NCBI GenBank assembly: GCA_026122225.1
Contig: JANEZZ010001860.1
Location: forward strand, 1 to 64,000
From: Heloderma charlesbogerti
Taxonomy: Eukaryota; Chordata; Lepidosauria; Squamata; Helodermatidae
Reading direction: 5' to 3'
Length of the DNA: 64,000 bases
The notes under the pieces are model-generated. The model saw only the letters and a program-made list of their open reading frames with translations. It did not search any database and was not told the DNA's origin. Positions 408 to 57,278 of the stretch are shown one piece after another; position 1 is the stretch's first letter; the number at the start of each line of letters is the position of its first letter. The position numbers and the translations under genes are program-made.

Positions 408-37576
<37,169 letters not shown>

Positions 37577-38475: not shown

Positions 38476-39133
38476 CTATTTCTAACAGTCACAGGAACGT
38501 TGGAAGTGGCCTTTGGCTGAGTCAGACCCTGGGTCTGTCTAGCCCAGGATTTTTATTTATTTATTTGCAATATTTATATACCGCTCCACATCAAAAGATT
38601 TCGCAACAGTGAACAGCAAGGATAAAAGAATGAAACACCATGTTAAAACAATCAAAACATTTAAAATACGTTCCTGATAACACTGTGGTTTATTAAACCC
38701 GGTCTTATCGGAACTTGTTTCTTTTAAAATGTTTTCATTGTTTTAACATAGTGTTTTATTCTTTTATCCTTGCTGTTCACCGCTCTGAAATCTTTTGATG
38801 TGGAGGGGTATATAAATATTGCAAATAAATAAATAAAATAAATACAAATCCTGGGCTACATGGACCCAGGGTCTGACTCAATCGAAGGCCGCTTCCGACA
38901 TTCCTGTGATAGTTAGAAATAGGATTTTTGACCCTGACTGGCAGCCATGGCTCTCCCTCCAGGGTTGCAGGCCAGTCATTTTCCCTCCAGCCCTACCTGG
39001 AGATGCCAGGGATCAAACCTGGGACCTTCTGCATGCAAAGCAGGTGCATACTTTTGGGGAGGGGCCATGGCACAGCGGTTGAGCCCCTGCTTTGCATGCA
39101 GAAGGTCCCAGGTTCGATCCCTGGCATCTCCAG
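38476..39133. repeat. Large foldback built from SINE and LINE pieces
   Basis: Arms at ~38476-38660 and ~38723-38917 are inverted copies of a SINE tail joined to an AT-rich LINE tail. Just beyond, the SINE head at ~38990-39057 is followed by the same tRNA-like head in direct orientation (~39066-39133, 'gcatgcagaaggtcccaggt'). The whole could fold into two nested hairpins. It is in the intergenic region between the two convergent genes. Confidence 0.7.
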
Positions 39134-40108: not shown

Positions 40109-40232
40109 TGAGGTGGGGGCCAAGGAACAAGCAGCCATCGAATTGGGTCCTTTCTAGCATTTGTGTGTTTGTTTGATTAGCTTGATAATACGATATGCGG
40201 AGAAATAATCACACAGATGTAATAAGAAATAA

Positions 40233-40259
40233 TTTATAGTGCTCTCTGCCACTGATACA
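40233..40259 (-). promoter_or_regulatory. Iron-responsive-element-like hairpin 4 (degenerate)
   Basis: Read on the TFR2 strand: lower stem UGUAU/AUAAA with one mismatch, unpaired C, upper stem AGUGG/GCACU with a G-G clash next to the loop, loop CAGAGA. It is clearly homologous to the other three but probably a weak or inactive IRE. Confidence 0.6.
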
Positions 40260-40330
40260 TTAATAAGATTTCAGTTATTATTAACTAGGTAAGTAAGGTA
40301 GATTTTCATCATATCTCATAGCAATAAACA

Positions 40331-40357
40331 TTTATAGTGATCACTGCCACTGATAAA
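40331..40357 (-). promoter_or_regulatory. Iron-responsive-element-like hairpin 3 (canonical loop CAGUGA)
   Basis: Read on the TFR2 strand: lower stem UUUAU/AUAAA, unpaired C, upper stem AGUGG/UCACU (four Watson-Crick pairs and a closing G-U), loop CAGUGA. It meets every sequence rule of the IRE consensus. Confidence 0.82.
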
Positions 40358-40392
40358 TTAATTAAACTGGAGGGGATCAGCAAAGCTGTGCA

Positions 40393-40424
40393 ATTTGTTA
40401 ATTGCAAAGGGGCAATTAACAAAT
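40393..40424 (-). promoter_or_regulatory. Perfect 13-bp hairpin between IRE-like elements
   Basis: Arms 40393-40405 and 40412-40424 are exact reverse complements around a 6-nt loop (CCCUUU on the TFR2 strand). It lies between IRE-like hairpins 2 and 3, the kind of position in which TFRC mRNA carries non-IRE stem-loops needed for rapid decay. Its function here is inferred. Confidence 0.55.
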
Positions 40425-40510
40425 GGGAAATTGGGTGGGAGGGCTGCAAAATAAAAGGTGGAAGTTAAGCACAGGATTTTGCTCTATTACATAGCAATAA
40501 ATCAATTCAA

Positions 40511-40537
40511 TTCATAGCAGACACTGCCACTGATGAA
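40511..40537 (-). promoter_or_regulatory. Iron-responsive-element-like hairpin 2 (canonical loop CAGUGU)
   Basis: Read on the TFR2 strand: lower stem UUCAU/AUGAA (extends to AAUUCAU/AUGAAUU), unpaired C, upper stem AGUGG/CUGCU with two G-U wobbles, loop CAGUGU. Compared with hairpins 1 and 3, the lower stem has a U-A to C-G double change that keeps pairing, so selection on structure is visible. Confidence 0.8.
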
Positions 40538-40640
40538 TTAGGAGGGAAAGTAACAATGAGGTAATTAACGAAGTGGGGTAATTAAGTTGCGGGAATACAA
40601 CAACAGCATGTTATCCCATTGCATAGCAATATATGAACAA

Positions 40641-40667
40641 TTTATAGTGACCCCTGTCACTGATAAA
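40641..40667 (-). promoter_or_regulatory. Iron-responsive-element-like hairpin 1 (first after the TFR2 stop)
   Basis: Read on the TFR2 strand: lower stem UUUAU/AUAAA (extends to AAUUUAU/AUAAAUU), unpaired C, perfect upper stem AGUGA/UCACU, hexaloop CAGGGG. The loop departs from canonical CAGUGN at position 4 but keeps the C1-G5 pair. It closely resembles the human TFRC IRE-A as I recall it (same stems, loop CAGAGU). It begins ~340 nt after the stop. Confidence 0.75.
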
Positions 40668-41007
40668 TTAAGAATAGGGGATGGACCAGGGTTGAGTAGA
40701 GAATATGGAAGGGTTTAGGAAGTGGAGCTGAAACTCTGCGTGCGTGTGTGTTCAAGAATTTGCTTGCCCAAGTTAAAACATCTCTATTCTGCCTAATTGA
40801 ACTGTTTTGCAACATTCTCCAATAAGGGATGCTGTTAGATACTAGAAGATTTGAGGGAAGTGGGAGAATATTGAACACTGAAGATTTCTCAGCACTGAAT
40901 ATTGAGATTTCAAACTTCAGACTTACATTTGGCACATTTTTGGTGTGTGCAAAATTTCATTTCAGCTCCAGCGGGGAGGGGGCATCCTTGTACATATTTC
41001 CCTGGGG

Positions 41008-44000
41008 TCAGAAGTTATTGTCAATATTCCAGACATCCCCACTCAGGGCGTTCGCTGCCCCCTGCAATGTCCAGGTGACGAGTGCCAGTTGGCGGCGGAA
41101 GAAGACTTCGTCAAAGTTTTCCGGGGCCTCCCGCAAGAGGCTGACGTGTTCCAGAAGAGCTCCCAGTGTGTGGGACCCCCGGCCGTGCAAGATGTGTCGA
41201 AATGGGGTCTCTGTGACCGCCACATACTGAGATAGGAAGTAGAATTCCACCTGGGGCAGAAAAGGGGAGCAATTAGTGGAGCAGAGGTACCCTAAAGTCC
41301 ATGGCTTTGTCCCCCACACCTAGCAGCCTTCCGTGCAGGGGAGTCAGAAGCTTGTGTGTCAGCAAAGTTAAGAACGTAAGAAGAGCCCTGATGCCAGACC
41401 AAATTAAGAGTCCATCTTGGACCATCAAAATGGCTGGTCCATCTAGTCCAGCATTCTGTTCCCAGTGGCCAACCAGCTGCCTGTGGGAAGCCCACAGGCG
41501 GGACAGGAGTGCCACAGCACCCTCCCACCCAAGTTCCCCAACAACTGATATGCATAGGTACACAACCACAGATGCTGGTGGTAGCATGGAAACATCAGTA
41601 GTAGTAACTGTTGATAGCTTTATACTCCGTGAATTTGTCTAATTCCTGTTTTAAAGCATCTAAATTGGTGGCCACCCATAGTTTAACTCCACACTATGTG
41701 AAGAAGTCCTTCCTTTGCTCTGTCCTGAATCTCCAATCTGTTTTATGGGATGACCTCATTGGGTTCTCATGGTATGAGAGAAGGGAGAAAAATGTCTCCC
41801 TCTCCACAACAGACATCATTTTGTTCACCTCTATCATGTCTCCTTTCACTCACCTTTTCTCTAAGCTAAACAATCCCAGCTGCCATAACTTTTCCTCCTA
41901 GGGGAGTTGCTCCAGCCCCTTGATCATTTGGGTTGTCCCATGTTGCAAGTTTAGAGGGACAAGCTATGCCCATGATGGAGGAGGAAACACACACGCCTCA
42001 TCTCAAAAAGGCTGCTCCCTTTTATTCCAGGCTAATTTGTCCAGAATTACTGCCACCCTCTTTTCCTGCACTCGCAGTTGCTAATGTGAATTCGAGGACA
42101 AAGTATACATGGAAAGCAGGAGACGGCTGCCTTTTGCTACCCATAAGCCACTCTGATTCGGAGCTGAAAAGAGTAGCTATGGTATAGGAAGAGGTCATTG
42201 CTCTGGACAAATTGTGCTGGGGCACCCTTGCCCACCAACGTATGTATAAACTCAATGCTATTCATGGGTGGAGAGAAGAGGACAAACGCTGGCAGGCCCC
42301 ACCCATGCACCCCAAATCCTGTTTTGTCTCACCCGCATGATCCGGACGTTGTAGATGCGCAACAGCCTCTCATTATGTTCTTCAGAACTGTAGATGTCCT
42401 TTCGCAGCTTCTCTGCTGCCCGTGTGTAATCGCCTCTGGCAGAGTACATCCATTGCAGGGTCAGCCCACGGCTCTTGATCAGGGGAAGAGGATAACAAGG
42501 GGAGGCAGAAAGTGGGGTTAAGATCAGTGGTGGTGTGGAGGTGGGGCTAACAGGGATGCAACACCTGCACTTTCTTCACTAATGGACTCTGACATCATGT
42601 GCCGCCCCACTCAGACCTCCGTTCCCTCTGAGCGCAGCTACAATCCTCACAGCAGCTGGGGGCAAATGAATTTTCCCTACAACAGTGTATTGTTCCTTGT
42701 AACGTAAAGTATTTTAGACCCATTATTAAATGGGCAATTAAGACCCAGTAGCTTTACAAAGGACCTGCTCCTGGTGGAGAGGGAAGGGAAGCTGCCAGAA
42801 CTGCTGATACGGATCAAACCACCTGCCTGCAGTTTTGAACTCTCCTTGGGGGTGTGGCTATGTCGGGGCTGTCATGATGAGTGCCTGCATTTCTGCATTT
42901 ACCCCTACACTGGTAGTTAAGATTTGGAAGCATGGAAGGTTCTGGTGCCTTCATGGATCACTGCCTTGTTGTGGCGAAGGGGCTTGCGTAACTCAGTGAA
43001 GCCATAAGCTATGCGGTGCAGGGCCACCCAAGACGGACAGGTCATGGCAGAGAGTTCGGACAAAATGTGGTCCACTGGAGAAGGAAATGGCAACCCACTC
43101 CAGTATTCTTGCCAAGAAAACCCCATGGAATGTATCACAAGGCTAAAAGATATGACGCCGGAAGATGAGCCCCTCAGGTCGGAAGGTGTCCAATATGCTA
43201 CTGGGGAAGACCAGAGGGTATTTCCAAGTAGCGCCAGAAAGAGTGAAGCGGCTGGGCCAAAGCCGAAAGGACACTCAGCTGTGGATGTGTCTGGTGGTGA
43301 AAAGAAAATCCGATGCTGTAAAGAACAATATTGTTTAGGAACCTGGAATGTCAGATAAATGAATCAAGGTAAGCTGGAGGTGGTCAAACATGAGATGGCA
43401 AGATTGAACATCGACATCTTGGGAATCAGCGAACTAAAATGGACAGGCATGGGCGAATTTAATTCAGGTGACCATCATATCTACTACTGTGGGCAGGAAT
43501 CCCTTAGAAGAAATGGAGTAGCACTCATAGTCAACAAAAGGGTGGGAAAAGCAGTACTGGGGTACAATCTTAAAAATGATAGAATGATCTCAGTACGAAT
43601 CCAAGGCAAACCATTCAACATCACAGTAATTCAAGTCTATGCCCCAACCACTGAGGCCGAAGAAGCTGAGGTTGATCGGTTCTATGAAGACCTACAACAC
43701 CTTCTAGAACTAACACCAACAAAAGATGACCTCTTCATCATAGGGAATTGGAATGCTAAAGTAGGAAGTCAAGAAATCACCGGGATAACAGGCAGGCATG
43801 GCCTTGGTGTACAAAATGAAGCAGGACAAAAGCTAATAGAGTTTTGCCAAGAGAACATGCTGATCATAGCAAACACTCTTTTCCAACAGCACAAGAGGCG
43901 ACTCTACACATGGACGTCACCAGATGGTCAATATCGAAATCAGATTGATTATGTCCTTTGCAGCCAAAGATGGAGAAGCTCCATACAGTCAGTAAAAACA

Positions 44001-47000
44001 AGACCTGGAGCTGACTGTGGCTCAGATCATGAGCTGCTTCTTGCAAAATTTCAGCTTAAATTGAAGAACGTCGGGAAAACCACTAAACCGTTCAGGTATG
44101 ACCTAAATCATATCCCTGATGAATATACAGTGGAGGTGAGGAATAGATTTCAGGGATTAGACCTGATAGACAGAGTGCCTGAGGAACTATGGACGGAGGC
44201 CCGTAACATTGTTCAGGAGGCAGCAACGAAATCCATCCCAAAGAAAAAGAAATGCAAGAAAGCCAAGTGGCTGTCTGATGAGGCTTTACAAGTAGCTGAG
44301 GAAAGAAGGGAAGCGAAAAGCAAGGGAGAAAGGGGAAGATATACCCAGTTTACATTCCAATTCCAAAGAAGGGCAACGACTGAACAACAACAACAAAGGT
44401 TTTGGTGCAGTGTTGAAAAGGGCAGGCAAGGAGGCTTGCCATGCACACAAACAGCGTCACACAGGCAACGAGTACTGGAGGCTGGTCGAGGAATAAGGGG
44501 TCCCATTCTATAGGCAAGTTCAAGCACCCAGGGCTGCAGCTGCACATTCTGGCCACTAGATGGTGCCAGAGTATACTGAAGGCACATCCAGGACCCTGTG
44601 GCCCCTGGGGAAAATAACTGGGAACACACCTGGCAGAACAATGTATTGGGTCTGATTGTCACCAGTGGGAGCATACCCAGATGACAGATGTGTCATGCTG
44701 GCCCAGTGCTGATCCAAATGTCTGATGGCAGGAAGGGAGACTCGGACAAGGAATGCCAGCATGCAAGGAGAAGAGCATCACAGAAGTCTACCTCTGGCCC
44801 ACTTCCTATTTCTTATGTGTGCCTGGTTAGGAGTGCATGAGGACAACTGCCTGGGGAAGCTCTTGTCAGGCTCAGCCACATTCCTAATCTCTCTCCCTTT
44901 CTGGAGTAGATCTCGAAGGATCGCTGCAGGATCCCTCTCCCCCCACCCCCAGGAAAATCTCTGTGCCCTACCTTCAGCTGTGTGGTGTATTCATTGAAGC
45001 GAGCGATATGTTGCAAGAGGACATCCCCGTAGCACCAGTAGTCGAGGGGCAGGAGGTGGTCATGGGTCAACTTGATCAGCAAGTGGCCCACAACCTCAGC
45101 CACAGTCTTCGCCACGGCAGGGAGACGCCCGTGGAGCGCGCGGTTGAGGTTATCGTATGTGTCCGCCATAGTATTGAGGAACGGGTATGGCCGAGAGTCC
45201 TACAGGCAGAGAGCCAGCAAAAGCAGGGGCAGGGAACATCCGGTCTGGATCCAAAGCTGGCCCACCAGATGGCCACACTTCCTTCTCATGGCCGCCCCAT
45301 GCCCCCCAAACCAGTGGATACTGGTAGCTCCGATGCCAGCTGGAGCTCACCAAGGTTCTGTGATGCCTTGGGGAGCTCCGCACCTTGGAGAGATCTGCAC
45401 CTTGGGGTGCTCCTTTATAGAGTCCTGACTGAAACCCGGACCAGAGTCACCGCCCCACTGGCATCGGAGCCACCAGCTTCCACTGTCCCAGCCTGCGACC
45501 ATTTGGGGGTCTCCCTGCTTTTGTGCAGTTTTTCCCCCCAGTTCTAAGTGGTTGAAACTTGTGCATGGCTGGCAGTAAGAGCCGAGCTACAAGAGGCTGG
45601 TGTTTCTAGTGTTTTGGCCCGCCCACCACTGGAATCTGGAATGTGGCTCCAAGAGCTTCTCCGAAACTGAATCTGGCCCAGAGGCAGAGAGGGGCCTCCC
45701 CGCTGCCCGCCCCAAGTTAGAGATTGAGGGACTTTGGCAAAGCTGTGGGAAATCTAGAACTGGCAGACCGCGGGGCTGGTATGTGTATATCTATCTGCCG
45801 GGACAGAAGAGTCTTTCCCCAACATTTAGAGGCTGTGGTAGGGAGCAAGAATAATCTTCCCGCCACCTCCCTTTTATTAAAAATGAGCCCAGAGAGACCA
45901 CACACCAAGTACATTAACAGGAGTGAAGAAATAAATGCTGGCAATGTATTTCAGTGTTGAGGGGGTGAGTGAGATGTGGGCTTTGCAGCCAGCCCTCCAC
46001 AAATCCCCCAAAATTCAGTCCACATTTTCTGCCCTGAAACCATACCCAGAACACAGGCAAAGAGCTCTAACCTCTGCAAAGGAGAATTCCACAGCAGGGA
46101 CGCCCCCAAACGAGGTGAAAGCAAAGGCGCTGCTGTCCATGGGAAGAGGACGGATACTGATACAATGGGGAGATTAAAAAATTGGCTGACAAAAGGAGAA
46201 ACAAAAAGGAAAGGGAAAGTAGGGGAGGTCTAATATGGGGGTACGGTCCCTCTTTGGGTTGGATTTGCATGTGGTGTATTTACTTCCACCCCCTTTAAGC
46301 CAGCCATCTTTTTTGACAGCCGCATTGATATTCTACTTCCGCACTTTTTGTGCGTTGTGGGCAGAAACAAAAACTTCTGCTTATTCATTGGTGTGGTTAT
46401 TCTGCATATGCTCAGGGGCATTCTTTCCTTTAGCATTACTCGCTACTTTCCAGGTTCTAGCTCCAACACTGAAGGTGGATTTCAGGGCTCAGCCTTGGAT
46501 CAAGTGAGAGAAAGATAAATGGAGTTGGGAGTCAAAAGCAGCGGGACCACAGGGAGGACCTCAAAATCACAAGGGATGGGAGTGGGGGGAGTCAAATGGC
46601 AAGGCTGAGCTCTTACACCTCGCTCTCCCAGCGCCGACCCTGCTCCGTCACCTGGTCAAAGATGCTGTGGCCGCTGCGGTTGGGACTATCCACCTGCCGA
46701 AAAGAGGTCAGGAGATGGAGAATAAACCCTCATCTTTGACCTGAAGCTAAAGCACCAAACTCCCTGAACAAGTTACTCAGATAATTAATGAAACTCGAAG
46801 GGCTGCCTTTGCCCTGTAAAAATGTCCAGTCCAGAGAACCCAGTGGGGAGTCTCCACAGTCGATCTGCTGCAAGCTGGCTCCATGTGGAGGCTGTTCGGG
46901 GCACATGCCGTCATGGCCATCCCACAGCCACCCTGGAGCTTTTCGTGGAAAACCCGTATTTCCAGAGAGTGCTTAAAGTCTTTTCCTCAAGTCGGGTTCT

Positions 47001-56000: not shown

Positions 56001-57278
56001 AAGGGACCTCTGGTCTAATCCAGCAAGGCTGCACTTAGGCCTCACTGGAACACTGGAAGCTGCCTTAAGCGGAGTCAGACGGCCTGGCGGCAGCGGCCCT
56101 CCAGGGATTCAGGCAGGCGTCTTTCCCAGCCCAACCCAGGGATGCTGCTGGGGATCGAACCAGGGACCTCCTGCCTGCAAAGCAGGGGCTCCACCCCTGA
56201 GCTACAGCTCTTGTTCTTAATAAAATCAGCTGCAATCCTAAGCCAGAGCCAGCATGATGAAGACAGCGGAACCAGAAGATCAAGAATAACAACAACATCC
56301 AGAGCAGCTTTTTCCACCCTGTTGCCCTCCAGATGTGTTGGGCTACACTCCTGCAGGCTGGGGGATGTTGGGAGTTGTAGCCCAACACATCTGGAGGGCC
56401 CCAGGATGGGGAAGGCTGTGCAAAATAGCGAACAACAGCCACAGCAATGAGCACAGGGCTGGTGGCCAGAAAAAGCCGTTTGTGGCTGTGGAGCTGCACA
56501 TATGTCAGCAGGGTCAGACTTAGTTCCTCTCACCTACAATGAAGAGCAGCAGACCCACGAGCACCAGGTACACCACGGCCCTCCAGGGATCCCGCCACAG
56601 GCATCGTGCCACTTCCCTGGCCCTCTCCCTGCCGCCATGGGCCAAGCTTGCCGCGGGGCTGTCCCCTGCCACGACCATCATCTGCAGCCCCTCCGCACTG
56701 GGCTCCCCGTCCCCCTCGGTGGCGTTGCGGTAGATGGTGTATGAGCGGCGCGCTGGCTTCTTGCTCTTCTGGAGGGAGGGAGAGGGCAGCAAAGGGGGCT
56801 TGGTGTGGGGGGGCGGGTGGGTGTGCGTCAGCCAGCACTCATTGGGCTGCGGACACGGGACACCCGGCCTCACCATTTATTTATTTATTTCATTTCTATA
56901 CCGCCCAATAGCCGAAGCTCTCTGGGCGGTTCACAAAAATTAAATCCAAGCAACACACAATAAAACAATTTAAAATATACAGAACATTAAAACCACAATA
57001 TAACAATACAACCACAATAAAACCTAGCAGCAGTGCAGGAGTTTAAAATACAGATTTAAAACAGCAAAGATAAAAATTTAGAAAGCTAAAATGCTAAAAT
57101 GCCTGGGAAAATAAAAAGGTCTTCACCTGGCACCGAAAGGAATACAATGTAGGCGCCAGGCGAACCTCACTAGGGAGCTCATTCCAGAGCCGGGGTGCCA
57201 CAGCAGAAAAAGCCCTCCTCCTAGTAGCCACCCGCCTCACTTCTCACGGAGAAGGGCCGCTGATGATGATCTTACCAT
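41008..57278 (-). CDS. TFR2: Transferrin receptor 2
   Basis: A type II membrane glycoprotein that binds holo-transferrin and, with HFE, senses iron for hepcidin control; it is also expressed in erythroid cells. Exons in transcript order: 57276-57278 (tentative ATG), 56534-56768, 53730-53913, 52787-52927, 52563-52674, 51550-51672, 51062-51178, 50703-50842, 50361-50533, 50006-50125, 49629-49711, 48646-48709, 48244-48311, 46617-46693, 46072-46156, 44972-45199, 42333-42473, 41008-41250. All phases match, giving ~778 residues (human ~801) in 18 exons, with no frameshift. TFR2 rather than TFRC is shown by [32 protein letters not shown] and [16 protein letters not shown]. The transferrin-binding RGD is present (YSARGDY). 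The start exon is the only weak part. Confidence 0.93.
41370..41945 (-). mobile_element. CR1 LINE 3' end
   Basis: Read in reverse it gives the common CR1 tail: 'ggacttcttcacatagtg', 'gggtggccaccaattta', 'ggcttcccacaggcagctgg' and 'gaacagaatgctggactag'. It lies in the last TFR2 intron. Confidence 0.75.
42949..44395 (+). mobile_element. BovB copy 3, internally deleted, in a TFR2 intron
   Basis: It has the complete 5' end and the 3' tail (gactgaacaacaacaac) but lacks nearly all of the reverse transcriptase. The junction is near 44335-44350, where the endonuclease frame (43359 onward, [34 protein letters not shown]) jumps to tail sequence. It is flanked by a 13-bp duplication with one mismatch, aaggttctggtgc (42936-42948) and aaggttttggtgc (44396-44408). 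It opposes TFR2 transcription. Confidence 0.9.
46250..46350 (+). repeat. Unclassified ~100-bp repeat of TFR2 introns, copy 1
   Basis: 'ccctttaagccagccatctt' and 'cgcattgatattc' recur at ~49840-49930, ~51312-51420 and ~52388-52500, all within TFR2 introns and in the same orientation. Confidence 0.5.
48785..48908. repeat. Palindromic hAT-like MITE
   Basis: Arms 'gccctccagatgtgttgcac' and 'gtccaacgcatctggcgggc'. It lies in TFR2 intron 48710-49628. Confidence 0.65.
49840..49930 (+). repeat. Unclassified ~100-bp repeat of TFR2 introns, copy 2
   Basis: 'aaaatggtgtatttctttcc' and 'cctttaaggcagccacctt' match the copies at 46250 and 51312. Confidence 0.5.
51312..51420 (+). repeat. Unclassified ~100-bp repeat of TFR2 introns, copy 3
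   Basis: 'ctcaaaatggtgttattatt' and 'aaggcagacatcttttttgc' match the other copies. Confidence 0.5.
52388..52500 (+). repeat. Unclassified ~100-bp repeat of TFR2 introns, copy 4
   Basis: 'cctttaaaggcaaccatctt' and 'gtattaatattccagattc' match the other copies. It is followed at 52563 by a TFR2 exon. Confidence 0.5.
53514..53656. repeat. Foldback repeat, family 3
   Basis: Arms of ~60 bases: 'gttctcctgcacaagcccca' against 'tggggcttgcgcaggagaac'. It lies in TFR2 intron 52928-53729. Confidence 0.65.
54640..55010 (+). mobile_element. L2 LINE 3' end
   Basis: Encodes [18 protein letters not shown], matching the C-terminal L2 protein, followed by the same AT-rich tail ending in a (gag)n/(gat)n microsatellite (~55004-55036). 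It lies in TFR2 intron 53914-56533. Confidence 0.65.
55940..56044 (+). mobile_element. CR1 LINE 3' end fragment
   Basis: 'gtgggcttcctggaggcatc' to 'ctaatccagcaaggctgc' matches the CR1 tail and is followed at once by a SINE. Confidence 0.55.
56045..56210 (-). repeat. tRNA-derived SINE
   Basis: 'actggaagctgccttaagcg' to 'cacccctgagctacagc', directly after a CR1 tail in TFR2 intron 53914-56533. Confidence 0.72.
56300..56422. repeat. Palindromic hAT-like MITE
   Basis: Arms 'gccctccagatgtgttgggc' and 'gcccaacacatctggagggc' are nearly perfect. It lies in TFR2 intron 53914-56533, close to the acceptor-side SINE. Confidence 0.68.
56534..57278 (-). other. TFR2: TFR2 start exon (tentative) and cytoplasmic/transmembrane exon
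   Basis: Exon 56534-56768 encodes a basic cytosolic tail ([16 protein letters not shown]), a ~40-residue linker and a transmembrane helix ([15 protein letters not shown]) that continues as FLLGYISS in the next exon. Its frame needs an upstream exon ending in phase 0. The nearest candidate is an ATG directly abutting a strong donor (ATG at 57276-57278 followed by gtaagatc), which would make M the only residue of exon 1. A longer upstream frame or a different first exon is possible. SYTIY resembles the TFRC internalisation signal SYTRF more than the mammalian TFR2 YQRV. Confidence 0.55.
56876..57238 (-). mobile_element. L2 LINE 3' end
   Basis: Starts with (ttta)n, 'cgcccaatagccgaagctct' and 'gggcggttcac', then 'gggagctcattccagagc'. 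This is the reverse of the L2 tail also present at 12060-12310. It stops ~35 bases before the tentative TFR2 start-exon donor. Confidence 0.7.

Follow-up and report, generated by a model that had tools for sequence, protein, structure and literature searches.

Hairpins of the TFRC IRE-A type downstream of the TFR2 coding region in the lizard Heloderma charlesbogerti

Downstream of the TFR2 stop codon in Heloderma charlesbogerti, on the strand of the gene, lie four hairpins (h1 to h4) that have the form of iron-responsive elements (IREs) and that, to judge from their bases, are all of one type, that of IRE-A in the 3' region of the sister gene TFRC. The element is of a known kind; what is new is its presence in a gene said to lack it. 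The gene is the same as mammalian TFR2 by its protein, but the mammalian mRNA is described as having no IRE in a 2025 review (PMC12045970), as the preliminary description of this DNA had also held, whereas the lizard gene has an IRE-like cluster. Neither SIREs 3.0 nor the IRE family paper names TFR2 in its main text, and among the matches listed from the open-access literature no title or abstract opening mentions an IRE in a non-mammalian TFR2. All coordinates below refer to the window, i.e. the whole stretch of DNA analysed (64,000 nt, one contig of a 2.30 Gb assembly), unless another contig is named.

The preliminary description had reported four hairpins 340-775 nt past the stop codon, each with one bulged C, a six-base loop starting with CAG and a 5-bp upper stem. 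The observation itself is confirmed, with the cluster at 339-777 nt, and the reading built on it is, as a whole, partly supported. Counted from the stop codon, and all on the minus strand, the hairpins are h1 (40639..40669), IRE-A-like with the non-canonical loop CAGGGG; h2 (40509..40539) and h3 (40329..40359), with the two canonical loops already described, CAGUGU and CAGUGA, respectively; and h4 (40231..40261), a degenerate IRE-A-like hairpin with the loop CAGAGA. The C at bulge position 8 (whether it bulges out will follow from the fold that the RNA adopts) and the six-base loop starting with CAG are found in 4/4. In the hairpin scan h1, h2 and h3 can form five of five upper pairs and six of six counted lower pairs; the description of a 5-bp upper stem in each hairpin is wrong for h4, which has four of five upper pairs (with a G.G beneath the loop) and five of six lower pairs. 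Of the 12 pairs in the alignment of the hairpins, h4 has lost 2. C14 and G18, which make the cross-loop pair, are likewise present in all four; in h1, G19 can also pair with C14 and competes for it. The bases A15 G16 U17 are present in h2 and h3, while h1 has G17 and h4 has A17; position 19 is U in h2, A in h3 and h4, and G in h1. Between h2 and h3 lies a further hairpin of 13 bp (40393..40424, minus strand; -13.3 kcal/mol, z -5.73), which recurs in the fold of the whole region and is neither an IRE nor a triloop hairpin.

The gene upstream of the cluster is, by sequence, the TFR2 of a squamate, perhaps an anguimorph lizard, with TFRC and FOLH1 more distant: squamate TFR2 proteins head its relatives, its last exon shares 63% identity with that of TFRC in this genome, and its best PDB chain, TFR1 (transferrin receptor 1), scores lower at 552 bits. 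The relatives were sought with the joined coding pieces (659 aa, the first of fifteen omitted). Among the best 120 of 1576 proteins, the top 17 are all squamate, at 76-87% identity, and almost all named TFR2; they are headed by Elgaria multicarinata TFR2 (87%, 1347 bits), which bears out the gene name of the preliminary description, and identity is 76-83% for the squamates at ranks 2-17. An incomplete match, that of Varanus komodoensis, has 75% identity across 80% of the query. On the minus strand of the window all fifteen coding pieces sought are present and open, together with one short middle exon, and their borders are intron-like wherever inspected; the first exon was not located on that strand. 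The last coding exon occupies 41011..41250 (minus strand) and is followed by the stop codon at 41010-41008.

On the other side of the cluster, a gene for a PI3K alpha-type catalytic subunit lies on the plus strand, tail to tail with TFR2, its frame stopping at 37576. Its C-terminal pieces (36107-37576, plus strand) are of class IA and match PI3K alpha with 286 bits and PI3K beta with 146; its earlier pieces presumably start at about 2.8 kb. Since human TFRC and PIK3CA share 3q, and human TFR2 lies on 7q22, this PI3K gene may be a second PIK3CA-like copy that dates from the same ancient duplication of the block. No other minus-strand gene was seen beside the cluster among reading frames of at least 120 aa below 40200. 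Several further frames, which we take to be retrotransposon-like and in several cases of LINE type, are found at 43359-44513 (plus), 12178-14427 (minus), 25643-28775 (minus) and 29497-31711 (plus); the first of these sits within a TFR2 intron. Three tRNA matches exceed the Rfam gathering score (39061-39132, plus; 8227-8282, minus; 56140-56211, minus) and are perhaps tRNA-derived SINEs.

Single hairpins of this shape are to be expected in a sequence of this length. Under a loose filter (bulged C, CAGNGN loop, at least four of five upper and at least four of six lower pairs) the two strands of the whole window yield 6, where 60 shuffles give 2.07 on average and 5 at most. The 808-nt region with the cluster yields 4 by itself; among its 5000 dinucleotide shuffles 4992 have none, 8 have one, and 0 have more, and under a strict filter three hairpins pass in the real sequence and none in any of the 5000. 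Isolated loose matches are thus ordinary, the cluster is not. A covariance-model search, of the kind proposed in the preliminary description, places h2 (36.2 bits), h3 (31.3) and h1 (30.3) above the gathering score of 30 for the Rfam family RF02253 (IRE_II), with h4 not among the matches; of the five TFRC IREs in this genome, four score higher, at 41.3-43.8 bits, the remaining IRE-D falling below the gathering score at 25.6. A second covariance model, trained solely on these five TFRC IREs and independent of the TFR2 sequences, recovers all four hairpins in the window, h1 with 35.6 bits (E 5.4e-7), h2 with 36.0 (E 4e-7), h3 with 36.8 (E 2.3e-7) and h4 with 24.3 (E 0.001), the sole other match up to E 10 having E 1.7. 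In the whole genome, the Rfam search at E <= 0.001, in which 87 of 595,597 candidates were scored, returns four places, all of them TFRC IREs and none a TFR2 hairpin. When the nine hairpins of TFR2 and TFRC are aligned, pairing holds in 95.4% of cells, against 77.4% on average in shuffles, and falls to 39.4-54.3% when the structure is slid along the alignment; 9 of the 12 pairs are changed on both sides, which 0 of 500 shuffles reach, much of this two-sided change being due to TFRC A versus B-E.

Five IREs, A to E, lie downstream of the TFRC stop codon (contig C3038), and it is IRE-A that the TFR2 hairpins resemble: h1 and h3 differ from it at 2 of 29 positions each, h4 at 5 and h2 at 6, against 9-13 of 29 for the IREs B-E. 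The likeness comprises the stem AUC-AGUGR-CAG...NCACU-AUAAAU, the bulged C and the 3' position in a sister gene. Of a million random IRE-shaped hairpins, whose pair frequencies were chosen manually to follow the nine hairpins, 108 come within 2 mismatches of IRE-A. A core pattern of IRE-A, written after the hairpins had been seen, occurs at exactly four places in the 2.3 Gb, namely h1, h3, h4 and TFRC IRE-A itself (h2 misfits), where about 0.008 would be expected under equal base frequencies; its reversed form, the control, occurs at 0. This kinship and near-uniqueness point to descent rather than to chance, convergence or a transposon, and together with the covariance models they uphold the identification of the hairpins as IREs in the preliminary description.

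Chance hairpins, or a repeat carried by a transposon, would be another explanation, as 64 kb of shuffled sequence holds about two loose IRE-like matches; set against this, the 5000-shuffle test, the genome-wide pattern count, the random-hairpin test, the TFRC-only model and the 511-nt region, for which a search of low sensitivity (it skips common words, and missed TFRC IRE-A too) found no second copy, make such an origin extremely improbable. A transposon or other repeat was rejected on the last of these results and on the confinement of the core pattern to TFR2 and the neighborhood of TFRC. A tandem repeat was rejected as well: Tandem Repeats Finder found none, and the units resemble diverged copies, with self-alignments of the cluster of 33-67 nt besides one of 17.

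The two genes differ in how the element is deployed: in TFRC a single IRE-A precedes four others with AUCGG in common, whereas TFR2 has four of the A type and none of the B-E type. Outside the hairpins the 3' regions of TFR2 and TFRC have little in common, as similarity ends within about 34-45 nt around each of them. This kinship to IRE-A in the absence of wider similarity favors an old shared element, one inherited by both sister genes and later multiplied within TFR2, over recent copying of the TFRC 3'UTR; the choice left open by the preliminary description, between a cluster that was ancestral and one that was gained, is narrowed to this extent. A late copy, in which TFR2 would have received the element from TFRC within reptiles, by gene conversion or partial retroposition of the 3'UTR, and then duplicated it, is compatible with function and would readily explain why h1 and h3 are just 2/29 off IRE-A, which is close for a very old split. 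It accounts poorly for the abrupt end of the similarity, for the failure of IRE-B, the neighbor of IRE-A, to accompany it, and for the 3-8 of 29 differences among the TFR2 hairpins themselves, and we regard it as rather unlikely, and as the less likely of the two.

The TFRC locus itself holds a second last exon 37 kb from the first (in C3038:401000-410900, at 6244-6005 on the minus strand therein), with 80/80 identical amino acids and about 97% identity when its flanks are included; some 84 nt beyond the stop codon the two sequences part. The 9.9 kb of this segment gave no IRE match, and the penultimate exon is absent from the 3.6 kb upstream; it is a partial duplication or an alternative 3' end devoid of IREs.

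Control of TFR2 through these hairpins would require that they be part of its mature mRNA, which the sequence suggests. Between the stop codon and h1 there is none of eight poly(A) hexamers (AATAAA, ATTAAA and six variants); the first three hexamers of this kind on the TFR2 strand are the TATAAA within h1, h3 and h4. AATAAA does not appear until 38760, and no ATTAAA precedes it. The 3' end is expected just past h4, where it is plausible because the TATAAA of h4 (at 40238) is a possible poly(A) signal and is followed by U-rich or GU-rich sequence. If transcripts usually ended before the cluster, the hairpins would not be transcribed into TFR2 mRNA at all: with no AATAAA or ATTAAA before 38760 the end is not fixed by sequence, and the TATAAA inside h1, h3 or h4 could end the mRNA early. 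The lack of hexamers ahead of h1, the plausible end just past h4, and the kept RNA pairing, which would itself imply transcription, all weigh against this, so that we hold it to be quite improbable and take the cluster as probably included.

Whether the hairpins could be bound by IRPs can be judged against the features given by Volz (2021; PMC8466369): A15 G16 U17 in the loop, a C14-G18 pair, a bulged C8, a five-pair upper helix, and at N19 a preference for U or C and not G, with A in 16% of classic IREs. By these five features h2 conforms throughout and h3 does so with A19; h1 departs at U17 and N19, and h4 at U17 and in the five-pair helix. Volz describes human TFRC IRE-A as having A17 and as not being an IRP1 site; unlike the human element, TFRC IRE-A of this lizard has U17. 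As isolated 31-mers, the IRE folds have energies of -6.7 (h1), -7.0 (h2), -6.0 (h3) and -2.6 kcal/mol (h4), where the validated set described in PMC12230718 has a mean fold energy of -7.11, and they lie 3.3, 0.7, 0 and 0.8 kcal/mol, respectively, from the best fold. In context, with flanks of 30-100 nt, the pairing probability of the IRE fold is 0.88-0.99 for h1, 0.00-0.03 for h2 and h3, and 0.01-0.18 for h4, competing folds winning by 4.0-4.1 (h2), 2.6-5.1 (h3) and 1.6-3.0 kcal/mol (h4). The TFRC IREs are themselves uneven by this measure: IRE-A and IRE-E reach 0.77-1.00, IRE-B gives high values too, with its lower stem at 30-nt flanks (0.37) as the one exception, whereas those of C and D drop to 0.00-0.06 once the flanks are 100 nt long. 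The fold of the whole region seems to retain h1 and not the IREs of h2, h3 and h4, for which no evidence was taken from it.

For h2 the rival fold is a UGU triloop on 7 bp (GUGGCAG-UGU-CUGCUAU), which is of the YRN kind accepted by Roquin, and would make of the same bases a candidate IRE and a candidate decay hairpin. In both h2 and h3 the apical GUGGCAGUG can pair 9/9, wobbles counted, with the adjoining repeated UAUUGCUAU, a partner equalled in 85 (h2) and 112 (h3) of 5000 shuffles of the 45-nt flank; where the apex is so paired, the loop would be hidden. The canonical hairpins may thus be bistable. IRP binding as tight as that stated for the FTH1 IRE (Kd about 30 pM; PMC8466369) could pay for the refolding of h2 and h3; the predicted context folds are nevertheless a real weakness.

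Two of the four loops being off the rule for IRP binding, and the other two being predicted to fold otherwise in context, the main case against IRP control is that the cluster is a relic, derived from true IREs and no longer regulating, with loops that are decaying (CAGGGG in h1; CAGAGA in h4, where the stem too is off the canon) and alternative folds that hide the remainder. Against it stands h2, which is 6/29 bases off IRE-A yet keeps all 12 pairs, its lower stem having a double change from U-A to C-G and its upper stem wobble-preserving changes; nor would two well-spaced canonical loops be likely to persist for long without selection. We therefore consider a relic unlikely, if a possibility to be taken seriously, and IRP control of TFR2 in this lizard, to judge from the sequence, probable on balance.

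Interleaved with the IREs are hairpins with UAU triloops, candidates for the type recognized by Roquin or Regnase-1. The first, UAUUGC-UAU-GCAAUG, has 6 bp and lies next to h1 (40617..40631, minus strand); the second, UUUAUUGC-UAU-GUAAUAGA, has 8 bp and lies next to h2 (40483..40501, minus strand). They share ten bases, UAUUGCUAUG, nine of which can pair with the apex of h2 and h3 as described above; the ten recur identically in a third copy after h3 (40317..40326, minus strand), the preceding spacer differing between the copies. In the third, the 3' arm has lost its triloop pairing, and the copy can pair with h3 instead; two of the three copies can thus form a YRN triloop, the kind of which YAU is the best variant, with a stem of about 6 bp. 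In context the first has a pairing probability of 0.02-0.75 depending on the flank (0.49-0.75 for its five inner pairs), and the second 0.94-0.96 at 60-nt flanks and 0.03 at 30-nt flanks. The region thus has two UAU triloops on stems of 6 bp or more; of 2000 shuffles, 19 reach two such YAU triloops and 4 reach two such UAU triloops. These statistics are weak, and the copies do not count as independent. A further decay hairpin, the third, was considered near 40840 because of 12 bases in common with TFRC (TAGTATCTAACA, E 0.26); it does not fold and was rejected.

Human TFRC has Roquin/Regnase-type hairpins, and TFRC of this genome has nine YRN triloops of at least 5 bp, including the UAU triloops ATGACAGT-UAU-ACTGTCGT after IRE-B and GTTAG-UAU-CTAAC after IRE-E. 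The TFR2 array resembles the Roquin constitutive decay element and Regnase-1 stem-loop of TFRC in having UAU triloops on 6-8 bp beside IREs, and differs from it in stem sequence and in the failure of one of the three copies to pair. YAU triloops are described as the most efficient Roquin sites (PMC6294493), and IRPs are said to protect mRNAs with 3'UTR IREs from Regnase-1 and Roquin-1 (PMC13148413). With this literature, the UAU triloops beside the IREs of both genes make it seem that TFR2 holds both halves of the TFRC module, the decay half being suggestive only.

We propose that the TFR2 3'UTR carries an IRE cluster that shares descent with TFRC IRE-A and was multiplied within TFR2. At low cellular iron, IRP1 or IRP2 would bind at least h2 and h3 and slow the decay of the mRNA; in iron-replete cells the IRPs would leave and the mRNA would be degraded, plausibly through the interleaved UAU triloops and their recognition by Roquin or Regnase-1, as for TFRC. 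Taken whole, this proposal appears to us reasonably probable. A broader reading, which we put forward tentatively and at somewhat below even confidence, is that the mRNA of an ancestral vertebrate transferrin receptor had an A-type IRE before TFRC and TFR2 split; TFRC would then have added B-E, reptile TFR2 would have multiplied A into an array of IREs and UAU triloops, and mammals would have lost it, leaving the lizard TFR2 as an iron-uptake receptor under direct IRP control, with canonical hairpins that are perhaps bistable.

As a sensor of holo-transferrin, TFR2 acts on the control of hepcidin, and TFRC with IREs versus TFR2 without them is the standard contrast between the two receptors; the human disease of TFR2 is haemochromatosis type 3 (as described in PMC3944790). 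The cluster also bears on the origin of IRE-A, a TFRC element of doubtful role in humans. If reptile TFR2 does carry an IRE cluster akin to IRE-A, the standard contrast would be the mammalian state; both receptors would once have shared post-transcriptional control, and the sensor role of TFR2 may be derived.
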